A stretch of DNA of 36,271 bases, from contig PBPT01000012.1 of the NCBI GenBank assembly GCA_002724735.1, positions 8,632 to 44,902 on the forward strand, given 5' to 3'. Of the stretch, positions 4,070-15,605 are shown one piece after another. The notes under the pieces were generated by a model that had not been told where the DNA came from, searched no databases, and saw only the letters and a program-made list of their open reading frames with translations. The stretch's first letter is position 1. Every line of letters begins with the position of its first letter. This DNA is from Fidelibacterota bacterium (GTDB lineage: Bacteria; Fidelibacterota; Marinisomatia; Marinisomatales; TCS55). The translations under genes and the position numbers were made by a program.

Positions 4070-6982
4070 TTAAATTGCTTTCTGAAAGCTAAAGACCCAT
4101 TCGTTTATATTTTCAAGTGAATTTCCATCGATTGTTGCCTCAATGGGCTTGTCAATTCTAAGATATAACGGCTGTCCATAGATGTTTGAAGATAACCGCA
4201 ATCCAAAACCATAATTTAACAATGAAGTGTTATCAAATAAGCGGTCATTTAAAACGAACTTAGAACCGGATAAAATGCCTCCATCGATAAAGGCGGCCAG
4301 CTCTAAACTGATGGGTCCAAATCTTTTATGCATGAATGTCTCAAAACTATTTGAAAGGACTTTTTCAACACCGATAAAATTCTGATTTCCAAAAGCTCGT
4401 AGATTTGCATCGCCTGGCATGTGATAGCGATTTCGTAAGTCATAATCCCCGTAAAAACTCGACGCATCTCTAAGATATCCTTTTTTGAGCATTGCGGCTG
4501 AACCTGCTCCTTCAACAGTAAATCGTTCCTGGGCGGGCACCCCCTTAGCGTCAGACCGCATCCATCCAAAAAAACTTCTATCCCGAACACCGAATAATCT
4601 GCTTTTCTTTTCAAACGTATCTTCCATGGTTAGTCTGGTAAAAGACCAATCCGATATACCAGCTGGAGAAAAGTCGATCATTATCGATCCTCCAGACAAT
4701 CTACTATCCGAAATACCGAACGAAACGACAGAGGTCAATCCTTTGTCAAACAGATTTGTCCGATTAATATTTGAGGCATCTGTAATAGACAAACCAACAG
4801 TTAAAGTGATGGGGCTGGTAGGATTCAGAGCATTGGATGTTGAAATCCTTAAACCCCTCACCCCGCCAAGATCATACAAATGATAATCGTATTTTCTTAG
4901 CCCGCTATGAAGATAGCGTCTCCATCCCGATATTTGCCAATAACCCTTGCCGGTTTCAGAACCTAAATTAAAATCAACGTTCAGTTCTTCATTTATGCCA
5001 TACGTTCTGTTGAGTTTTATGCCAGGCATGTAGCTATCGATATCGTGATACTGAAGCGTGGGATGGTACTGAATCACATATCTATTGCGTGGACGGTAGC
5101 GCATACCAGGCCGATACAACAAAATCTCAGAAGGCATTTTTGTCTGAACAAAATTATTTCTAAAGTCGATATCCATTGTTTGCACATCCGGATCCAGTGA
5201 TGCATTTTTTGGCTCAGAGGGAACGTTGTACGTAAATGAATCGGTTCTTCTGAATTTGTGATTTTTCCACCAGATTCTATGTGCAGATCCATCCGCTAAA
5301 TTTGTTTCAATCAATTGCGGCATATCTCTTTTCCCGTGGCGAACGATATTCAAAGTAACGTCCCACGTACCATTAGGTTTTTGAGTTTTTTTCCAACTTT
5401 TTAATCCATAATCGAGAAGACGAGTATCGTGAAGCCAAGGCCTAAAAAACCAATCAAGATCCTCACCACTGACCTCCTCAACGACATCTATAAAGCGCTT
5501 TTCATTTACGTGCTTTAGTTTCCAACGGCGATAGTATTCTTGCATGCTGTTTAAAAAAATTTCTTCACCTAAAATATATTTTAACTCATCCAGCATTAAG
5601 GATGGTTTCGTGTAAGCATTCGCACCTGCAGCTCTGGTATTTTTAAACATATAGGTTGAGCGACTGATTGGTTCATCAAGGCCACTACTCATAAATCCGA
5701 TCATGCTCCATTGTGTATTGCCTAGGTCGCTTGAAAACTTCCAATACTTTTTTTGCCAGTTTTTCAGTCTATCGCTTTTCATGTCAAACCCTTGATCTCC
5801 GTACCGGTCCACCATATACCATCGCTCTTGAAAGCTCGTAAACCCTTCATCCAGCCAAGACTCACGAACTTCGTTGTTTGCTAATATTCCAAAAAACCAT
5901 ATATGTCCCACCTCATGCAAAATAAGTCCCTCAGACTCACTGCCATCCATTACGAGCATCGGATATTCCATTCCTCCACCAGCCAGCCTATCGGTATTGG
6001 TAACTTGCGGGTAGGCATACATTCCGAACTTTGTACTAAGCCACTCAATCGCACGTTCTGTCCTTGCAACAACCTTTTTGGTCCATTTCTTGCCATTTTT
6101 TTGATTGTAAAGGACATGAACGTCAATACCATTCCAACTGCCGCTTTCGTATAAAAAATTGGGGGTTGTCACCCATGCAAAATCATGCACATTCTCAGCA
6201 AAAAACGTTACGATTCGTCTTTCGCTTTCATCGTATTCATTGCGGTTTTTTTTAAAACCTTTTAGCCACTGACTAAAATTCTGACTGGTATCTACTCGAA
6301 CCTCTTCCCAACCCGGGTCACCATTTGTAACGGTTCCCGTAGAACCAATTATATAACCTCGAGGTACATTCATTGTAACTTCATAATTTCCAAACTCACC
6401 ATAAAATTCTCCTTCAGCATGAAAGGGTTCATTGAACCAGCCATTTTCATCATACACCACTACCCTTGGATACCATTGCGCAAAATTATACTGCACTCCA
6501 ACGCGCCCTGCTCGCTCTAAAAATTCTCCCACATGGTGCGTCCAATCCAAATCAATTACCATTGTAGCTCCGGGCTGAAGACCTTTGGAGAGCTTAGCAG
6601 ACAATATTGTATCATCTATTTTAAAAGTATCCGATAATGCCGATGCGCCATTCTTTATGATGAAATTATTTATTTCGTATTTGCTAAAAAATGGACCTAT
6701 ACCTTTTTTAATGCGCGCTCCTCTATAGGTTCTACCAAGACCCGCTGAATACTCTCTATATTTAACGGTTCCTTCTTGAAAAGCATTTGCATATAGATTT
6801 AAATAGAAGTGATAAAGCGTATCAGGAGAATTATTTTTATAACTGATAGTGGAATGTCCCCCAATGGTATGATTAGCAGTATCCAACTGGACATCCATTT
6901 TATAGGATACAAATTGTTGCCAGTAATCCTCTGCAAAAATTGGAGAAAGACATAATAACAATAAAAGGTTAATTTTTTTCAT
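4070..6982 (-). CDS. Secreted M1-family metallopeptidase with C-terminal barrel-like region
   Basis: The 970-residue product starts with a signal peptide (MKKINLLLLLCLSPIFA). The gluzincin core is complete. The exopeptidase motif region reads GGGMEY (335-340), the zinc motif is HEVGH (356-360), and the third ligand Glu379 lies 19 residues after the second histidine, with the WLDEGFTSF context. A downstream AYTKPSLMLDELKYILG segment fits the catalytic-tyrosine region. After about residue 630 the sequence changes to alternating polar and hydrophobic strands and ends with YGFGLRL...LRID-type stretches. These resemble the last strands of surface-antigen/Omp85 (D15) barrels. Ordinary M1 enzymes lack this. 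It would make an outer-membrane-anchored or surface aminopeptidase. The barrel part is inferred from pattern alone. The stop lies 50 bases before the ATPase gene. Confidence 0.85.
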   Translation of the reverse strand: MKKINLLLLLCLSPIFAEDYWQQFVSYKMDVQLDTANHTIGGHSTISYKNNSPDTLYHFYLNLYANAFQEGTVKYREYSAGLGRTYRGARIKKGIGPFFSKYEINNFIIKNGASALSDTFKIDDTILSAKLSKGLQPGATMVIDLDWTHHVGEFLERAGRVGVQYNFAQWYPRVVVYDENGWFNEPFHAEGEFYGEFGNYEVTMNVPRGYIIGSTGTVTNGDPGWEEVRVDTSQNFSQWLKGFKKNRNEYDESERRIVTFFAENVHDFAWVTTPNFLYESGSWNGIDVHVLYNQKNGKKWTKKVVARTERAIEWLSTKFGMYAYPQVTNTDRLAGGGMEYPMLVMDGSESEGLILHEVGHIWFFGILANNEVRESWLDEGFTSFQERWYMVDRYGDQGFDMKSDRLKNWQKKYWKFSSDLGNTQWSMIGFMSSGLDEPISRSTYMFKNTRAAGANAYTKPSLMLDELKYILGEEIFLNSMQEYYRRWKLKHVNEKRFIDVVEEVSGEDLDWFFRPWLHDTRLLDYGLKSWKKTQKPNGTWDVTLNIVRHGKRDMPQLIETNLADGSAHRIWWKNHKFRRTDSFTYNVPSEPKNASLDPDVQTMDIDFRNNFVQTKMPSEILLYRPGMRYRPRNRYVIQYHPTLQYHDIDSYMPGIKLNRTYGINEELNVDFNLGSETGKGYWQISGWRRYLHSGLRKYDYHLYDLGGVRGLRISTSNALNPTSPITLTVGLSITDASNINRTNLFDKGLTSVVSFGISDSRLSGGSIMIDFSPAGISDWSFTRLTMEDTFEKKSRLFGVRDRSFFGWMRSDAKGVPAQERFTVEGAGSAAMLKKGYLRDASSFYGDYDLRNRYHMPGDANLRAFGNQNFIGVEKVLSNSFETFMHKRFGPISLELAAFIDGGILSGSKFVLNDRLFDNTSLLNYGFGLRLSSNIYGQPLYLRIDKPIEATIDGNSLENINEWVFSFQKAI

Positions 6983-10874: not shown

Positions 10875-13697
10875 ATGAAAAAAATTATATCTACATCCCT
10901 TCTTTTGTTTTTAGTGAGCTGTACCTCAAACCCAAAAACAAATTTTGAAATAGATTATGAAGAGTATCAGCTTGATAACGGTTTAACGGTTATTCTACAT
11001 CAAGATGATTCTGACCCTTTGGTTGCAATTGCTACCGTTGTCCATGTTGGCTCGAATAGAGAAAAACCTGGAAGAACGGGGTTTGCTCATTTTTTTGAAC
11101 ATGTATCTTTTACTGCATCAGAAAATACACCTAATGGAGCACATCGCTTACTCATTCCTACGTGGGGTGGACAAAGGAATGGGGGTACCAGTTTTGATTT
11201 TACGTATTACTATGGTGTGGTGCCTAAAGATGCCATGGAAAAACTTGCATGGATAGCGTCTGACATTATTGGTTTTGTTATTAATACTGTTGATGAACAA
11301 ACACTAGAGGGCGAAAAGCAAGTTGTTAAAAATGAGAAAAGGCAACGCGTTGACAACCAACCTTACGGTCATGGAAGAGGAATAATTTTGAAGGCGCTTT
11401 ATCCCAAAGGGCACCCCTACAGCTGGTCGGTAATTGGTGACCTTGAAGACCTTCAGGCGGCAACGGTTGATGATGTAAAAGAATTTTATAAAGAATTCTA
11501 TGGCCCAAATAATATGACAGTCGTTATTGCTGGAGACATTAAAATCGATGAAACGAAAAAAATGGTTGAGAGATGGTTTGGTGAGATTAAACCTTCATCC
11601 AATGTTTCCGCGGACCCTAAACCACAACCTGTTTCGCTTTCTGAATCTAAAAATTTGTTCCATTTGGATAAATTTGCTAAACTTCCTGAATTAAGCATCG
11701 TCTTTCCTACCGTAGAAGAGTATCATCCAGATGCCTATGCGCTTAGTGCTTTAGCTGCTCTTTTATCGGATGGTAAAAATTCACCTTTTTACAAAGAGAT
11801 TGTAGAAAAACAGCGCATTGCTCCCAATGCTTCTGCTTACAACTATTCTTCTGAAATTGCAGGCCAGTTCACCATCAGAGTTCGATCCAATCCCAATACT
11901 AAGCTAGACTTGGTATATGATGCCATCAAGCAAGCACTAGAAAACTTTGAAACTGATGGGGTAAACGAAAAAGATCTTAAAAGAATTAAAGCGGGTCAAG
12001 AAACAGCATTTTATAATGGAATCTCTACAAATCTGAATAAAGCTCTGCAACTTGGACTTTACAGTGAATACGCTGGTGACCCTGGCTTCATAGGTCAAGA
12101 CATTCAAAACATTCTTAATGTGACGGTTGAAGATGTTCAAAGAGCATATGAGAAATATATTAAAGATAAGCCTGCAGTTTTCTTAAGTATAGTTCCTCAA
12201 GATCAATCTAGTCTAGTTCTTTCAAATTCCACACAGGCAGATGTAAAAGAAGAGGAAATTGTTCCAGGAGCTGAAAAAAACTTTAGTATGAAATACGGAA
12301 AAGAAAAATCTGAATTTGAAAAAACTCCAACCAAGTACGACCGATCCGAACCTCCTTTTGGAGAACCTCCTTTATTAGAACTTCCAAAGGTTTGGAGAGG
12401 CGATCTTTCTAATGGTATTAAGCTTTATGGCATTGAAAACGATGAATTGCCCATGATTCAGTTCACGATGCGAATTGATGGAGGTCAAGCGCTTGATCCT
12501 GAAGGAAAAGAGGGCGTTGCTCTTTTGCTGGGATCCATGTTAAAAGAAGGAACAAAAGATAGAACCCCCGCTGAATTAGAAGAGGCCATTGATTTGCTTG
12601 GCTCCAGCATTTCATTATCAGTCGGCTTGGAGGGTATGTACATTTCAGGAAATACTCTTGCAAAAAACTTTAATGAAACCATTTCCATAATGACAGAAAT
12701 GCTCACTGAACCCCGTTGGGATGAGCAAGCGTTTGAAATAGTTAAAAACAGAAGAATTAACTCTATCAAACAGCGAAGAACAAATGCACAATCAGTTGCA
12801 TTTAGCGCCTTGGCTAGACAACTCTACGGCCCTGGCCACCCAGCATCAACACCGCTAGGCGGAACAGAATTCTCAGTAAACTCCATTACGATGGAAGATT
12901 TAAAAAACTATTTCTCTTCAAATCTTTCACCCAAAGTTTCTCATTTCCATATAGCTGGAGATATTAAACAGACCACTGCTCAAAGACTATTGGGTCAACT
13001 ATCTCAAGCTTGGAAAGGCGAAAAGGTGAATATTCCTAAGATCCCTCGCGTTGAACCACCCTCAAAACCAAAAGTATTTTTTATTGACATACCAGACGCA
13101 AAACAGTCGGCCATTAGCGTCGGTACGCTTACGATTCCAGGTAATGATCCAGAGCTGTTTAAGCTAACGGTTGTGAATAATAGATTGGGTGGAGGAATGG
13201 AAGCAAGGCTAATGCGCACACTGCGTTTGGAAAAGGGATATACTTATGGAGCAGGTTCGTTTTTAAGAGCTAACTCATTTCAAACACCCTTCTACGCTTA
13301 TTCGCAAGTTCGCAGTAATGTTACTCTCGAGTCGCTTGATATATTTAAGAATATTATAAACAGCTACTCTGAATCCTACAATGAGGAAGATCTCGAAACT
13401 ACAAAAAACAAATTAATCAAAAGCAATGCATTGCGTTTTGAAAGACTCGGAAGCATGATAAATATGCTTGATACCATGAGCAAATTCAATTTGGGAGACG
13501 CATATATACTTGACGAGCAAGAGGTCTTATCCTCAATGAAACTTGATGAAGCTAAATCTCTTGCTAAAAAGAGGCTCGATGGAAAAAAAATGTACTATGT
13601 AGTAGCTGGAGATGCTAAATCGCAACTTGGCCGTATATCAAAACTGGGTTATGGCAAACCAGTTATACTTGACAGAGATGGAAATAAAGTAAAGTAA
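10875..13697 (+). CDS. M16-family zinc peptidase lipoprotein, two-repeat form
   Basis: The 940-residue protein has a lipoprotein signal with lipobox LVSC (Cys16). The N-terminal half holds the inverted zinc motif HFFEH (72-76) and the third ligand Glu154 within VVKNEKRQR, so it is the catalytic M16 half. The C-terminal half, from about residue 490, repeats the M16 fold (LSNGIKLYGIENDELPMIQF, then RLGGGMEARLMRTLRLEKGY) without HxxEH. Such paired halves form a clam-shell that degrades peptides. The lipoprotein signal places it in the periplasm, tethered to a membrane. It begins a three-gene plus-strand operon; the next gene starts 17 bases after its stop. Confidence 0.95.
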   Translation: MKKIISTSLLLFLVSCTSNPKTNFEIDYEEYQLDNGLTVILHQDDSDPLVAIATVVHVGSNREKPGRTGFAHFFEHVSFTASENTPNGAHRLLIPTWGGQRNGGTSFDFTYYYGVVPKDAMEKLAWIASDIIGFVINTVDEQTLEGEKQVVKNEKRQRVDNQPYGHGRGIILKALYPKGHPYSWSVIGDLEDLQAATVDDVKEFYKEFYGPNNMTVVIAGDIKIDETKKMVERWFGEIKPSSNVSADPKPQPVSLSESKNLFHLDKFAKLPELSIVFPTVEEYHPDAYALSALAALLSDGKNSPFYKEIVEKQRIAPNASAYNYSSEIAGQFTIRVRSNPNTKLDLVYDAIKQALENFETDGVNEKDLKRIKAGQETAFYNGISTNLNKALQLGLYSEYAGDPGFIGQDIQNILNVTVEDVQRAYEKYIKDKPAVFLSIVPQDQSSLVLSNSTQADVKEEEIVPGAEKNFSMKYGKEKSEFEKTPTKYDRSEPPFGEPPLLELPKVWRGDLSNGIKLYGIENDELPMIQFTMRIDGGQALDPEGKEGVALLLGSMLKEGTKDRTPAELEEAIDLLGSSISLSVGLEGMYISGNTLAKNFNETISIMTEMLTEPRWDEQAFEIVKNRRINSIKQRRTNAQSVAFSALARQLYGPGHPASTPLGGTEFSVNSITMEDLKNYFSSNLSPKVSHFHIAGDIKQTTAQRLLGQLSQAWKGEKVNIPKIPRVEPPSKPKVFFIDIPDAKQSAISVGTLTIPGNDPELFKLTVVNNRLGGGMEARLMRTLRLEKGYTYGAGSFLRANSFQTPFYAYSQVRSNVTLESLDIFKNIINSYSESYNEEDLETTKNKLIKSNALRFERLGSMINMLDTMSKFNLGDAYILDEQEVLSSMKLDEAKSLAKKRLDGKKMYYVVAGDAKSQLGRISKLGYGKPVILDRDGNKVK

Positions 13698-13714
13698 ATT
13701 TAAAAGGTTGAGCT

Positions 13715-15160
13715 ATCGCTGACTGGGTCCTATTTGCTTCAATTTTCATTGGAATTTTACTCGTTCTTGGTACGGCTGAGACAGTAAAAACTTACTTAAA
13801 TAAACCAGCAAATTGGACAAGAAAATTCATACATATTAGTGTAGGTTTGGTGGTATCTATTTGTCCATTTTTATTTAAAGTAAATACTCAACTAATCGCT
13901 TTATGTCTTTTATTTATAGTTATTAATACTTACCTATATAATAAAAATAAGGTGAACAGTATGCATAGTATCGATCGAGCTAGCTATGGTACTATTATTT
14001 TTCCAATATCAGTTCTTATCTTATCGGTTTTTTTTTGGGAAAAGCCAATAACTTTCTTTATTTCAATTGTTACCCTTGCTATTGCTGATCCTATGGCCGC
14101 AATTGTTGGTGAACGCTCTAAGGAGCATTTTAAACCCTGGAAGGACCGTAAGTCATTACAGGGATCGCTGGCCATGTTTTCATCAACTTTTATAATTGTT
14201 CTTTTTGGGACAGATTTCATGGTGCGGTTTTTTAATGCATCGTTCTATCTTCCTATTCATATTCTTTTAGGGTTAGCGTTGTTTACATCACTATGCGCTA
14301 CGCTTTCTGAAATGCTATCCTATCGAGGTTCAGATAATTTTTCAATCCCGGTTATCACATTCTTTTCTTATGAAATTTTCTTAATCAACTATACCCATGG
14401 ATCGTTAATAGATCTATTGCTATGGACAGGATTATCCATTCTAATTTTTACCTTATCTTACAGATTAAAGTCTGTTAGCTTAAATGGCGCTATTGGTGGT
14501 TTTTTAATTGGAATCTTAATATTTGGTTCTGGAGGGTGGGCTTTGATATCTCCACTAGTCTTCTTTTTTGTCAGCTCGTCAATTTTATCAAAGACTAAAG
14601 ATAAGAAAGATTCCAGAAGAGATCTTTTGCAGATTTTGGCAAATGGTGCTGTGCCTGCCTTTCTTGCGCTAACCTATTTCTTTTTTTCTTATGAACTAGC
14701 TCTTTTTGCTTATTTTGGGGCGCTTGCGGCTGCCACAGCAGATACCTGGGCTACGGAAATAGGTTATTTTTCAAAGAAAGACCCTATGCTACTAATTGGT
14801 TTCAAAAGAGTAAAAAAGGGGGAATCTGGCGCAATATCCCTTATTGGAACCATTGGTACTATTGCTGGGGGATTGGGCATTGCTTTAATTTCGCAAACTG
14901 TACATGATTCGAAGCTGGCTATTTTTTTTATTACTGCTGCTGGTATTATGGGGTCGTTTGTGGATTCTTTTTTTGGACAATTCATTCAAGCCAAATACCA
15001 GTGCAATATATCTGGTGAAATTGTAGAAGAAAAATATAATCTTAATGAAAAAACTATTCTTTTAAATGGCGTAGAATGGATAGACAATAATTTCGTAAAC
15101 TTGGCAAATACATTGACTGGTGCTTTGGTTGCAGGTCTTTTCTTTTTTCTTTATGGATAA
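13715..15160 (+). CDS. Polyprenol/phytol kinase-like + DUF92 (VTE6-like) fusion, start codon ATC
   Basis: Coding potential reaches upstream to a TGA at 13709. The first codons (GCT ATC GCT GAC TGG...) lead into a first helix (WVLFASIFIGILLVLGTAE) and the motif RKFIHISVG shared by dolichol and phytol kinases. No ATG/GTG/TTG lies before TTG 13847, which would delete that helix and motif. ATC at 13715, seven bases after AAAAGG, sits where a start is expected. It is either a rare AUC start or an altered ATG. The N-terminal half holds the kinase signature IADPMAAIVGE...DRKSLQGS. The C-terminal half is DUF92 (AAATADTWATEIG, KKGESGAISLIGTIG, MGSFVDSFFGQ), the family of plant phytyl-phosphate kinase VTE6. 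It would be an integral membrane enzyme of 481 residues phosphorylating a prenol twice. The stop overlaps msrC by 8 bases. Confidence 0.75.
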   Translation: MADWVLFASIFIGILLVLGTAETVKTYLNKPANWTRKFIHISVGLVVSICPFLFKVNTQLIALCLLFIVINTYLYNKNKVNSMHSIDRASYGTIIFPISVLILSVFFWEKPITFFISIVTLAIADPMAAIVGERSKEHFKPWKDRKSLQGSLAMFSSTFIIVLFGTDFMVRFFNASFYLPIHILLGLALFTSLCATLSEMLSYRGSDNFSIPVITFFSYEIFLINYTHGSLIDLLLWTGLSILIFTLSYRLKSVSLNGAIGGFLIGILIFGSGGWALISPLVFFFVSSSILSKTKDKKDSRRDLLQILANGAVPAFLALTYFFFSYELALFAYFGALAAATADTWATEIGYFSKKDPMLLIGFKRVKKGESGAISLIGTIGTIAGGLGIALISQTVHDSKLAIFFITAAGIMGSFVDSFFGQFIQAKYQCNISGEIVEEKYNLNEKTILLNGVEWIDNNFVNLANTLTGALVAGLFFFLYG

Positions 15161-15605
15161 ATCAATAACATATCAACAAACTGCAAAGAATATAGATCTT
15201 TGTTTTAAAGATTACCCTATCAGTATTATTGGAAAAATGTCTTTGATAGCCTCTATGCTAATGAATGCATTTCCAGATTGGATATTTTGCGGTTTTTATC
15301 GAAAGGTTAGCGAAGAAATGCTAGAAATTGGTCCCTTTCAAAGCGCTATTATCCCCTGTGGACAAATTCATTTTTCAAGTGGGGTCTGCGGCAAGGCAGC
15401 ATCTACTTGTGAAACCGTTATAGTTGAAAACGTAATGAACTTTTCTGGATATATCTCTTGTGATGATGAAACTGTGTCGGAGATTGTAGTTCCCGTTGTC
15501 AAGAACGGTGAGTTAATTGCGGTTTTGGATGTTGATGGTCCTAATGAGGGTCAATTTGATAGCACCGATCAAAAATATCTAGAGAAAATTGTACATCTAA
15601 TATAA
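15153..15605 (+). CDS. msrC: Free methionine-(R)-sulfoxide reductase (GAF-domain type)
   Basis: The start is ATG 15153, overlapping the previous stop by 8 bases. The 150-residue product is a single GAF domain with the fRMsr signatures: IPCG with Cys69, SSGVCGKAA with Cys79, GYISCDDETVSEIVVPVV with Cys103, and the tail LIAVLDVDGP. The three cysteines correspond to the catalytic and resolving set of E. coli fRMsr. It reduces free methionine-(R)-sulfoxide in the cytoplasm at the expense of thioredoxin, a defence against oxidative damage. It is the last gene of the M16-kinase-msrC unit and is followed two bases later by a terminator hairpin. Confidence 0.93.
   Translation: MDKSITYQQTAKNIDLCFKDYPISIIGKMSLIASMLMNAFPDWIFCGFYRKVSEEMLEIGPFQSAIIPCGQIHFSSGVCGKAASTCETVIVENVMNFSGYISCDDETVSEIVVPVVKNGELIAVLDVDGPNEGQFDSTDQKYLEKIVHLI

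Follow-up and report, generated by a model that had tools for sequence, protein, structure and literature searches.

Does a single membrane protein of a marine bacterium carry both kinase domains needed to turn a free isoprenoid alcohol into its diphosphate, and which alcohol would it use? The question is raised by a gene for a 481-residue membrane protein that occupies one frame at positions 13715-15160 on the plus strand of the window, the term used here for the whole stretch of 36,271 nucleotides analysed. Judged from its letters, the gene had been described as a fusion of a VTE5-like prenol kinase and a VTE6-like DUF92 domain, which will be referred to as the sequence-only reading.

Gene, Reading Frame, and Probable Start Codon

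The open frame extends from 13712 to the stop codon at 15158-15160, and an in-frame TGA stop at 13709-13711 precedes the ATC codon at 13715-13717 (+). The first in-frame ATG, GTG or TTG of the fusion gene is found at 13847, and a protein initiated there would lack the first transmembrane helix and the greater part of the second, as these are defined by the structural model. Comparison with relatives places the beginning of the conserved protein near 13715. The start coordinate 13715 of the sequence-only reading is therefore retained as the place where the conserved protein begins, but the codon found there is ATC and not ATG, GTG or TTG. An SD-like AAAAGG, recognised by reading the sequence, is located at 13702-13707 (+), 7 nt before the ATC codon.

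Among 110 distinct fused genes, 104 possess an ATG, GTG or TTG ahead of the conserved tryptophan; the remaining six comprise the four genes of genus g1, to which the window belongs, and two others. The aligned start codons in genus g1 are ATC, ATT, ATC and ATC (window, L003, L004 and L005, respectively), thus ATC or ATT in all four members with the gene, and in each of these four genomes the stop codon of the upstream gene lies 17-28 nt before the AUC or AUU codon. The fifth genome of the genus, which is 58% complete, yielded no match to the fusion. The pattern is consistent across four separate assemblies and makes a non-canonical start in genus g1 probable; AUU and other non-canonical starts have been discussed for bacteria. 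In two further loci, L113 (about 1867-1869) and L068 (minus strand, N-terminus), an in-frame CTG was observed near the expected start, with no ATG, GTG or TTG there.

Substitutions were compared with the nearest sister L003 (73% identical). For the N-terminal half pN was 0.137 and pS 0.706, and for the C-terminal half 0.169 and 0.656, respectively, with synonymous sites near saturation; these values indicate purifying selection with similar constraint on both halves. The fusion is more than a chance arrangement, as judged by the low pN relative to pS in each half and by the recurrence of this two-domain frame throughout the phylum.

The N-Terminal Half

The N-terminal half, residues 1-232 (13715-14410, +) with eight predicted transmembrane helices, was assigned as a putative SEC59/VTE5-like (COG0170-type) prenol-kinase domain on the basis of its motif, the structural model and a fold match to CdsA 4q2g. 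The motifs HISVG, ADPMAAIVGE and KSLQGS, on which the sequence-only reading had relied, are all found in this half. The first is part of the conserved segment RKFIHISVG (13820-13846, +), in which R36 and H40 are present in 63/63 sequences of alignment A2 and G44 in 61/63. The CTP-type motif DPMAAIVGERSKEHFKPWKDRKSLQGS covers residues 125-151 (14087-14167, +); D125, G132 and G150 are conserved in 63/63 sequences, A128 and K146 in 62/63, and the one row without K146 reads X. The invariant residues of the N-terminal half in this 63-sequence alignment are R36, H40, D125, G132, G150, E199, D207 and N208.

The core CTP motif D..A...G...K[ST]..G is represented in the window by D125, A128, G132, K146, S147 and G150, and in its loose form, with a spacer of 13-15 residues, it was detected in 62 of 63 relatives. 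In 12,600 shuffles that served as a control, a stricter version of the motif, its spacer fixed at 13 residues, did not occur. In the model, the motif loop 134-147 comes after helix 111-133. The published dolichol-kinase motif is DxxAxxxGxxxGx8KKTxEG (PMC5853391), with which the window protein is in exact register at D125, A128, G132, K146 and G150. Five of the nine positions of this strict motif are thus exact, R145 for K and S147 for T are conservative, and the glycine at motif position 12 and the glutamate at position 25 are replaced; as the full motif is absent, the domain was not filed as a dolichol kinase proper (SEC59/DOLK).

A Pfam search with the N-terminal half of the window protein gave, at E ≤ 1, a SieB match attributed to chance and nothing else. 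PF01148 (CTP_transf_1) was weakly matched by 2 of the 26 members of A1 (best E 3.5e-7), and residues 19-208 of L157 matched it with E 0.0016 and 18.8 bits, below the 24-bit cut-off. Judged by these profile scores, the N-terminal half of the window protein is too divergent for Pfam.

The C-Terminal DUF92 Half

Residues 233-481 (14411-15157, +) form a DUF92/VTE6-like domain, again with eight predicted transmembrane helices and an alignment to CarS 5guf. Its identity as DUF92, recognised earlier by eye, was borne out by PF01940, which matched residues 240-470 with E 1.4e-57 and 195.4 bits against a cut-off of 27.5 and was aligned over profile positions 2-251 of 251; the same match scored 198 bits in the whole-genome profile search. 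With the TIGR00297 equivalog (NCBIfam) 93.1 bits were obtained against a cut-off of 205.85, and the half was not filed there.

The segment ADTWATE (residues 342-348; 14738-14758, +) contains A342, D343, T344, W345, T347 and E348 in 63/63 sequences, and D343 falls within helix five of this domain; D417 (14963-14965, +), the second invariant aspartate of the half, is likewise present in 63/63. The invariant residues of the half in alignment A2 are R302, Q306, N310, D343, T344, E348, D417, Q425, E438, N458 and N462. In relatives, the predicted cytosolic loop 424-457 (14984-15085, +) shows a zinc-ribbon-like CxxC...HC pattern, with C430 in 56/63, C433 in 54/63 and H442 together with C443 in 54/63. 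The window reads C430, S433, N442 and L443 at these positions, and the pattern was found degenerate in its genus. Loss of kinase-type residues was looked for in both halves, and none of them has been lost; both halves thus look alive, and we infer catalysis for each.

Predicted Structure and Topology

The AlphaFold model of the whole protein (pLDDT 93.6, pTM 0.92) consists of sixteen long helices, eight in each half, and as each domain thus has an even helix count, the two would be inserted in the same orientation. Loops after odd-numbered helices contain 26 K/R in 111 residues compared to 2 K/R in 31 residues on the opposite face. The putative active-site loops, 134-147 and 351-375, each follow the fifth helix of their domain in the model. 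As both lie on the K/R-rich face, they should face the cytosol, and the active sites of both domains are presumably cytosolic.

When the N-terminal half was folded alone, CdsA (CDP-DAG synthetase) occupied Foldseek ranks 1-4 (best probability 0.99, E 0.033), and superposition on CdsA 4q2g gave Z 8.9 and rmsd 3.5 over 155 aligned residues, a match that stands above the others but near background for helical bundles. Residues 318-480 of the whole model aligned to CarS 5guf with Z 6.6 and rmsd 4.0 over 121 residues, a score that unrelated rows of the whole-model fold search also reach. Residues 109-226, too, align to CarS 5guf, and to the same part of its core as residues 318-480. Since Z values of this size are close to chance for helical bundles, the fold is assigned largely because motif and family agree with it. 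Profile comparison of the two halves was weak (hhalign probability 3.9%, p 0.011), pairing the AD of ADP with the AD of ADT, and the shared ancestry proposed for the halves rests on their predicted folds. Sequence searches of the PDB with P0001, A3 and A4 gave no relevant solved relatives. On the basis of predicted structures, the kinases of phytol, farnesol and dolichol have been grouped with CdsA and CarS in one superfamily, and EC 2.7.1.182 is described there as including a second, divergent group (PMC13397572).

Distribution of the Fusion

DUF92 was detected in 154 of the 245 genomes searched of the host phylum, Marinimicrobia, and in 68 of the 94 better ones. Among the 150 matches listed, 135 are located in frames of at least 480 amino acids, 5 in frames of 380-479 and 10 in shorter ones; these short frames belong to five f25 genomes, G190 (4.4-kb contig), G033, G097, G149 and G212, and some of the last four are cut at contig ends. 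The fusion of two domains in one frame, as claimed from the single gene, is thus real, is not peculiar to the window organism and is the rule among Marinimicrobia. In a scan of named genomes, 78 of the best 80 of 562 relatives showed frames of at least 480 amino acids; the set favours full-length matches, so the share of fused forms beyond the phylum cannot be read from it. The record titles of these best 80 name Marinimicrobia/Neomarinimicrobiota, Calditrichota, KSB1, Ignavibacteria and Bacteroidetes (Bacteroidota). Several of these relatives are marine according to their titles, and the sample codes in other titles we take to denote deep-mine, digester and hot-spring sources. Alignment A2 retains 63 rows; of the 17 loci among the 80 that it omits, two had broken frames, two had odd starts and the others were near-duplicates.

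The f15 lineage, with genomes of 0.4-1.0 Mb, lacks full-length forms, which indicates that the fusion is dispensable in some relatives. Family f25 (G194-G198; L062-L066) carries stand-alone DUF92 genes; no N-terminal half was found near them in stretches of about 10 kb (L065 7,968 and L067 4,403 bases), and matches to this half in the f25 genomes were weak (E 9e-7 to 3e-10). In a 78-row tree of the DUF92 half, built by a quick method, the five f25 proteins that stand alone fall inside the fused Marinimicrobia rows. This placement suggests, short of a firm conclusion, that f25 lost the N-terminal half; the rooting is unreliable as the outgroup row (Thermomicrobium) is a 29%-filled fragment from a broken frame. 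Searches of plasmids and of phages yielded one weak relative each. At 5001-5711 of L173, on Thermomicrobium roseum plasmid NC_011961.1, there is a DUF92 relative that lacks annotation (identity 40%, query coverage 49%), and its frame is apparently broken by a stop near 5187.

Gene Neighbourhood and Genome Context

Upstream of the fusion lies a gene for an M16-type peptidase, named by reading (10875-13697, +), the stop codon of which precedes the ATC by 17 nt. A same-strand homologue of this gene is found directly upstream in 10 of the best 80 loci. The earlier remark that no pathway gene is visible nearby was confirmed, as none was found beside the fusion, and clustering of 528 flanking ORFs from the best 80 loci gave no isoprenoid partner among the recurrent neighbour clusters. 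The most common of these was a mixed cluster occurring on both sides (27 loci), and a small protein and two Hut-type genes (names by reading) recurred in 14-15 loci each. A GAF-type protein, also named by reading, is encoded downstream in 5 of the best 80 loci. In the window, the last part of the fusion gene is overlapped by a GAF-domain-like frame (15120-15605, +), which by eye looks fRMsr-like.

The only match to the N-terminal half in the window genome is the fusion itself. A separate PF01148 gene is present elsewhere in this genome, so that the role of CdsA need not fall to the fusion. Potential sinks for prenyl diphosphates are encoded as well, namely two polyprenyl synthases, a UbiA member and one SQS_PSY member.

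Proposed Function and Alternative Explanations

The best explanation for both domains is that they are intramembrane CTP-dependent kinases of the same superfamily. We propose, with a probability of roughly 0.6, that these two tandem domains act as prenol kinases, converting a short prenol into its diphosphate within a single membrane enzyme. The N-terminal domain would phosphorylate a short isoprenoid alcohol, most likely farnesol or geranylgeraniol and possibly phytol, to the monophosphate, and the DUF92 domain would add the second phosphate to give farnesyl, geranylgeranyl or phytyl diphosphate, which could then enter the polyprenyl-synthase, UbiA and phytoene/squalene-synthase pathways. With both active-site loops facing the cytosol in the same orientation, the monophosphate could pass from one domain to the other without leaving the membrane. 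CTP use, the order of the two steps, the substrate class and the hand-over are what the respective families lead us to expect. VTE5 and VTE6 of plants phosphorylate phytol in two steps (PMC7580956, PMC5694494), acting in sequence and also accepting geranylgeraniol and its phosphate (PMC13415981), and archaeal DUF92 genes adjoin uppS (PMC5898192). Taken together with the fusion known from Methanosarcina, this chemistry and gene order make the conversion of a prenol to a prenyl diphosphate the best reading. Undecaprenol appears less likely, since conversion of undecaprenyl phosphate to the diphosphate would oppose its normal recycling.

Phytol had been put forward earlier as a possible substrate, and a specific salvage of phytol from algal chlorophyll, yielding phytyl diphosphate for quinones or lipids, would suit the several marine relatives. 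The fusion is, however, also common in relatives from what we presume to be deep mines, digesters and hot springs, so that chlorophyll-derived phytol is unlikely to be the main substrate, and no phytol-releasing gene was seen beside it. Such salvage is indeed performed by plant VTE5 and VTE6 (PMC7580956, PMC5694494), but the same fusion occurs in Methanosarcina (PMC5898192); phytol as the specific substrate is thus unsupported, and we regard it as improbable. The diphosphate might instead be geranylgeranyl diphosphate destined for archaeal-type ether lipids, as the GGGP synthase PcrB is encoded in 156 of 244 genomes of the phylum. Nevertheless, genera g1 (that of the window) and g7 possess the fusion without a PcrB match, and f16 and f19 possess PcrB with no DUF92 among the matches listed and weak N-half matches. 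As the fusion and PcrB each occur without the other, this link, the least probable of those considered, was set aside. As a separate observation, at least two N-half-like matches were counted in 10 of 14 PcrB-bearing genomes of family f1 with an N-half match, compared to 4 of the 21 that lack PcrB. As a guess, an archaeal-lipid cytidylyltransferase may account for these additional matches.

A different lipid substrate is somewhat easier to envisage but still unlikely. The N-terminal domain would then be a kinase of another lipid alcohol, for example a CTP-dependent diacylglycerol kinase (EC 2.7.1.174), and DUF92 a lipid-phosphate kinase or nucleotidyltransferase, with a phospholipid intermediate as product. 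The predicted fold, apparently shared with the cytidylyltransferases CdsA and CarS, would fit such an activity, and EC 2.7.1.174 enzymes have also been placed within the CdsA-like cluster (PMC13397572). The partner domain argues against it, as the plant DUF92 member VTE6 is tied to phosphorylation of phytyl phosphate (PMC5694494), and so does the PF01148 gene already present in the genome. It is also conceivable, with little probability, that only one half is catalytic and the other a structural or regulatory remnant of a domain duplication: f25 retains the DUF92 half alone, so the halves are separable, and the zinc-ribbon-like loop is degenerate in the genus of the window. This is opposed by the charged residues that are invariant in both halves in 63/63 sequences and by the similar constraint on the two.

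The two-kinase reading, by which the fusion probably recycles isoprenoid alcohols into usable building blocks, bears on how farnesol and geranylgeraniol are salvaged, a route that has been called a missing pathway, for which few enzymes are identified and which is known only from plants and cyanobacteria (PMC9782597). The fused form fixes the pairing of both domains and provides a single gene to express, and since one gene would cover the whole salvage step the fusion is worth testing. If it is active, prenol recycling would be part of the ordinary physiology of non-photosynthetic bacteria, and the protein would represent a compact means of supplying isoprenoid pathways with prenols. More tentatively, and with rather less than even odds in our estimation, we suggest that this single chain, a tandem duplication, is the general prenol-recycling enzyme of many bacteria that lack photosynthesis and takes the alcohols as far as the diphosphates, the monophosphate being handed directly from one cytosol-facing site to the other. 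Its synthesis in one marine genus would be limited by a conserved AUC or AUU start coupled to the upstream gene.

Comparison with Known Systems

The predicted folds of both halves resemble, with scores near the background for helical bundles, those of CdsA (4q2g) and CarS (5guf), which consist of one domain, transfer CMP rather than phosphate and show 12-13% identity in the alignments listed. With SEC59/DOLK the N-terminal half shares the core motif in register (D1, A4, G8, K22 and G26), differing by G12 to K, K21 to R, T23 to S and E25 to Q; moreover, SEC59/DOLK has one kinase-like domain and the window protein two. The phytol kinase VTE5 and the farnesol kinase FOLK (COG0170) resemble the N-terminal half in core CTP motif and predicted fold class, and it is by these features that this half, unlike them fused, is set beside them. 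To VTE6 (COG1836, DUF92) the C-terminal half is related by scoring over the Pfam DUF92 cut-off, a likeness of family membership, whereas its TIGR00297 score of 93 versus 206 bits is below the cut-off. VTE6 of plants and cyanobacteria is a separate protein, although fusions may be mentioned in the principal account of VTE6 (vom Dorp 2015). VTE5 and VTE6 are treated as two enzymes in PMC7580956 and PMC5694494.

Our literature search for a bacterial fusion of SEC59-like and DUF92 domains found none. The closest counterpart is Methanosarcina Mbar_A3310, reported by Makarova et al. in 2015 as a fusion of a SEC59-like domain with arCOG02245 (DUF92); their paper places the two domains in the cytidylyltransferase superfamily, notes a pair of conserved aspartates in each and predicts a role as isoprenoid kinase (PMC5898192). 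Compared by this description, Mbar_A3310 agrees with the window protein in both domains and in their order. In the window protein the SEC59-like domain comes first in one frame, and D125, D207, D343 and D417 are conserved in 63/63 sequences, although these may differ from the aspartates meant in PMC5898192. Mbar_A3310 is archaeal, whereas the fusion of the window type is bacterial, usual in Marinimicrobia and found also in Calditrichota, KSB1, Ignavibacteria and Bacteroidota. The architecture as such has thus been published for archaea, and what appears to be new here is its bacterial form.
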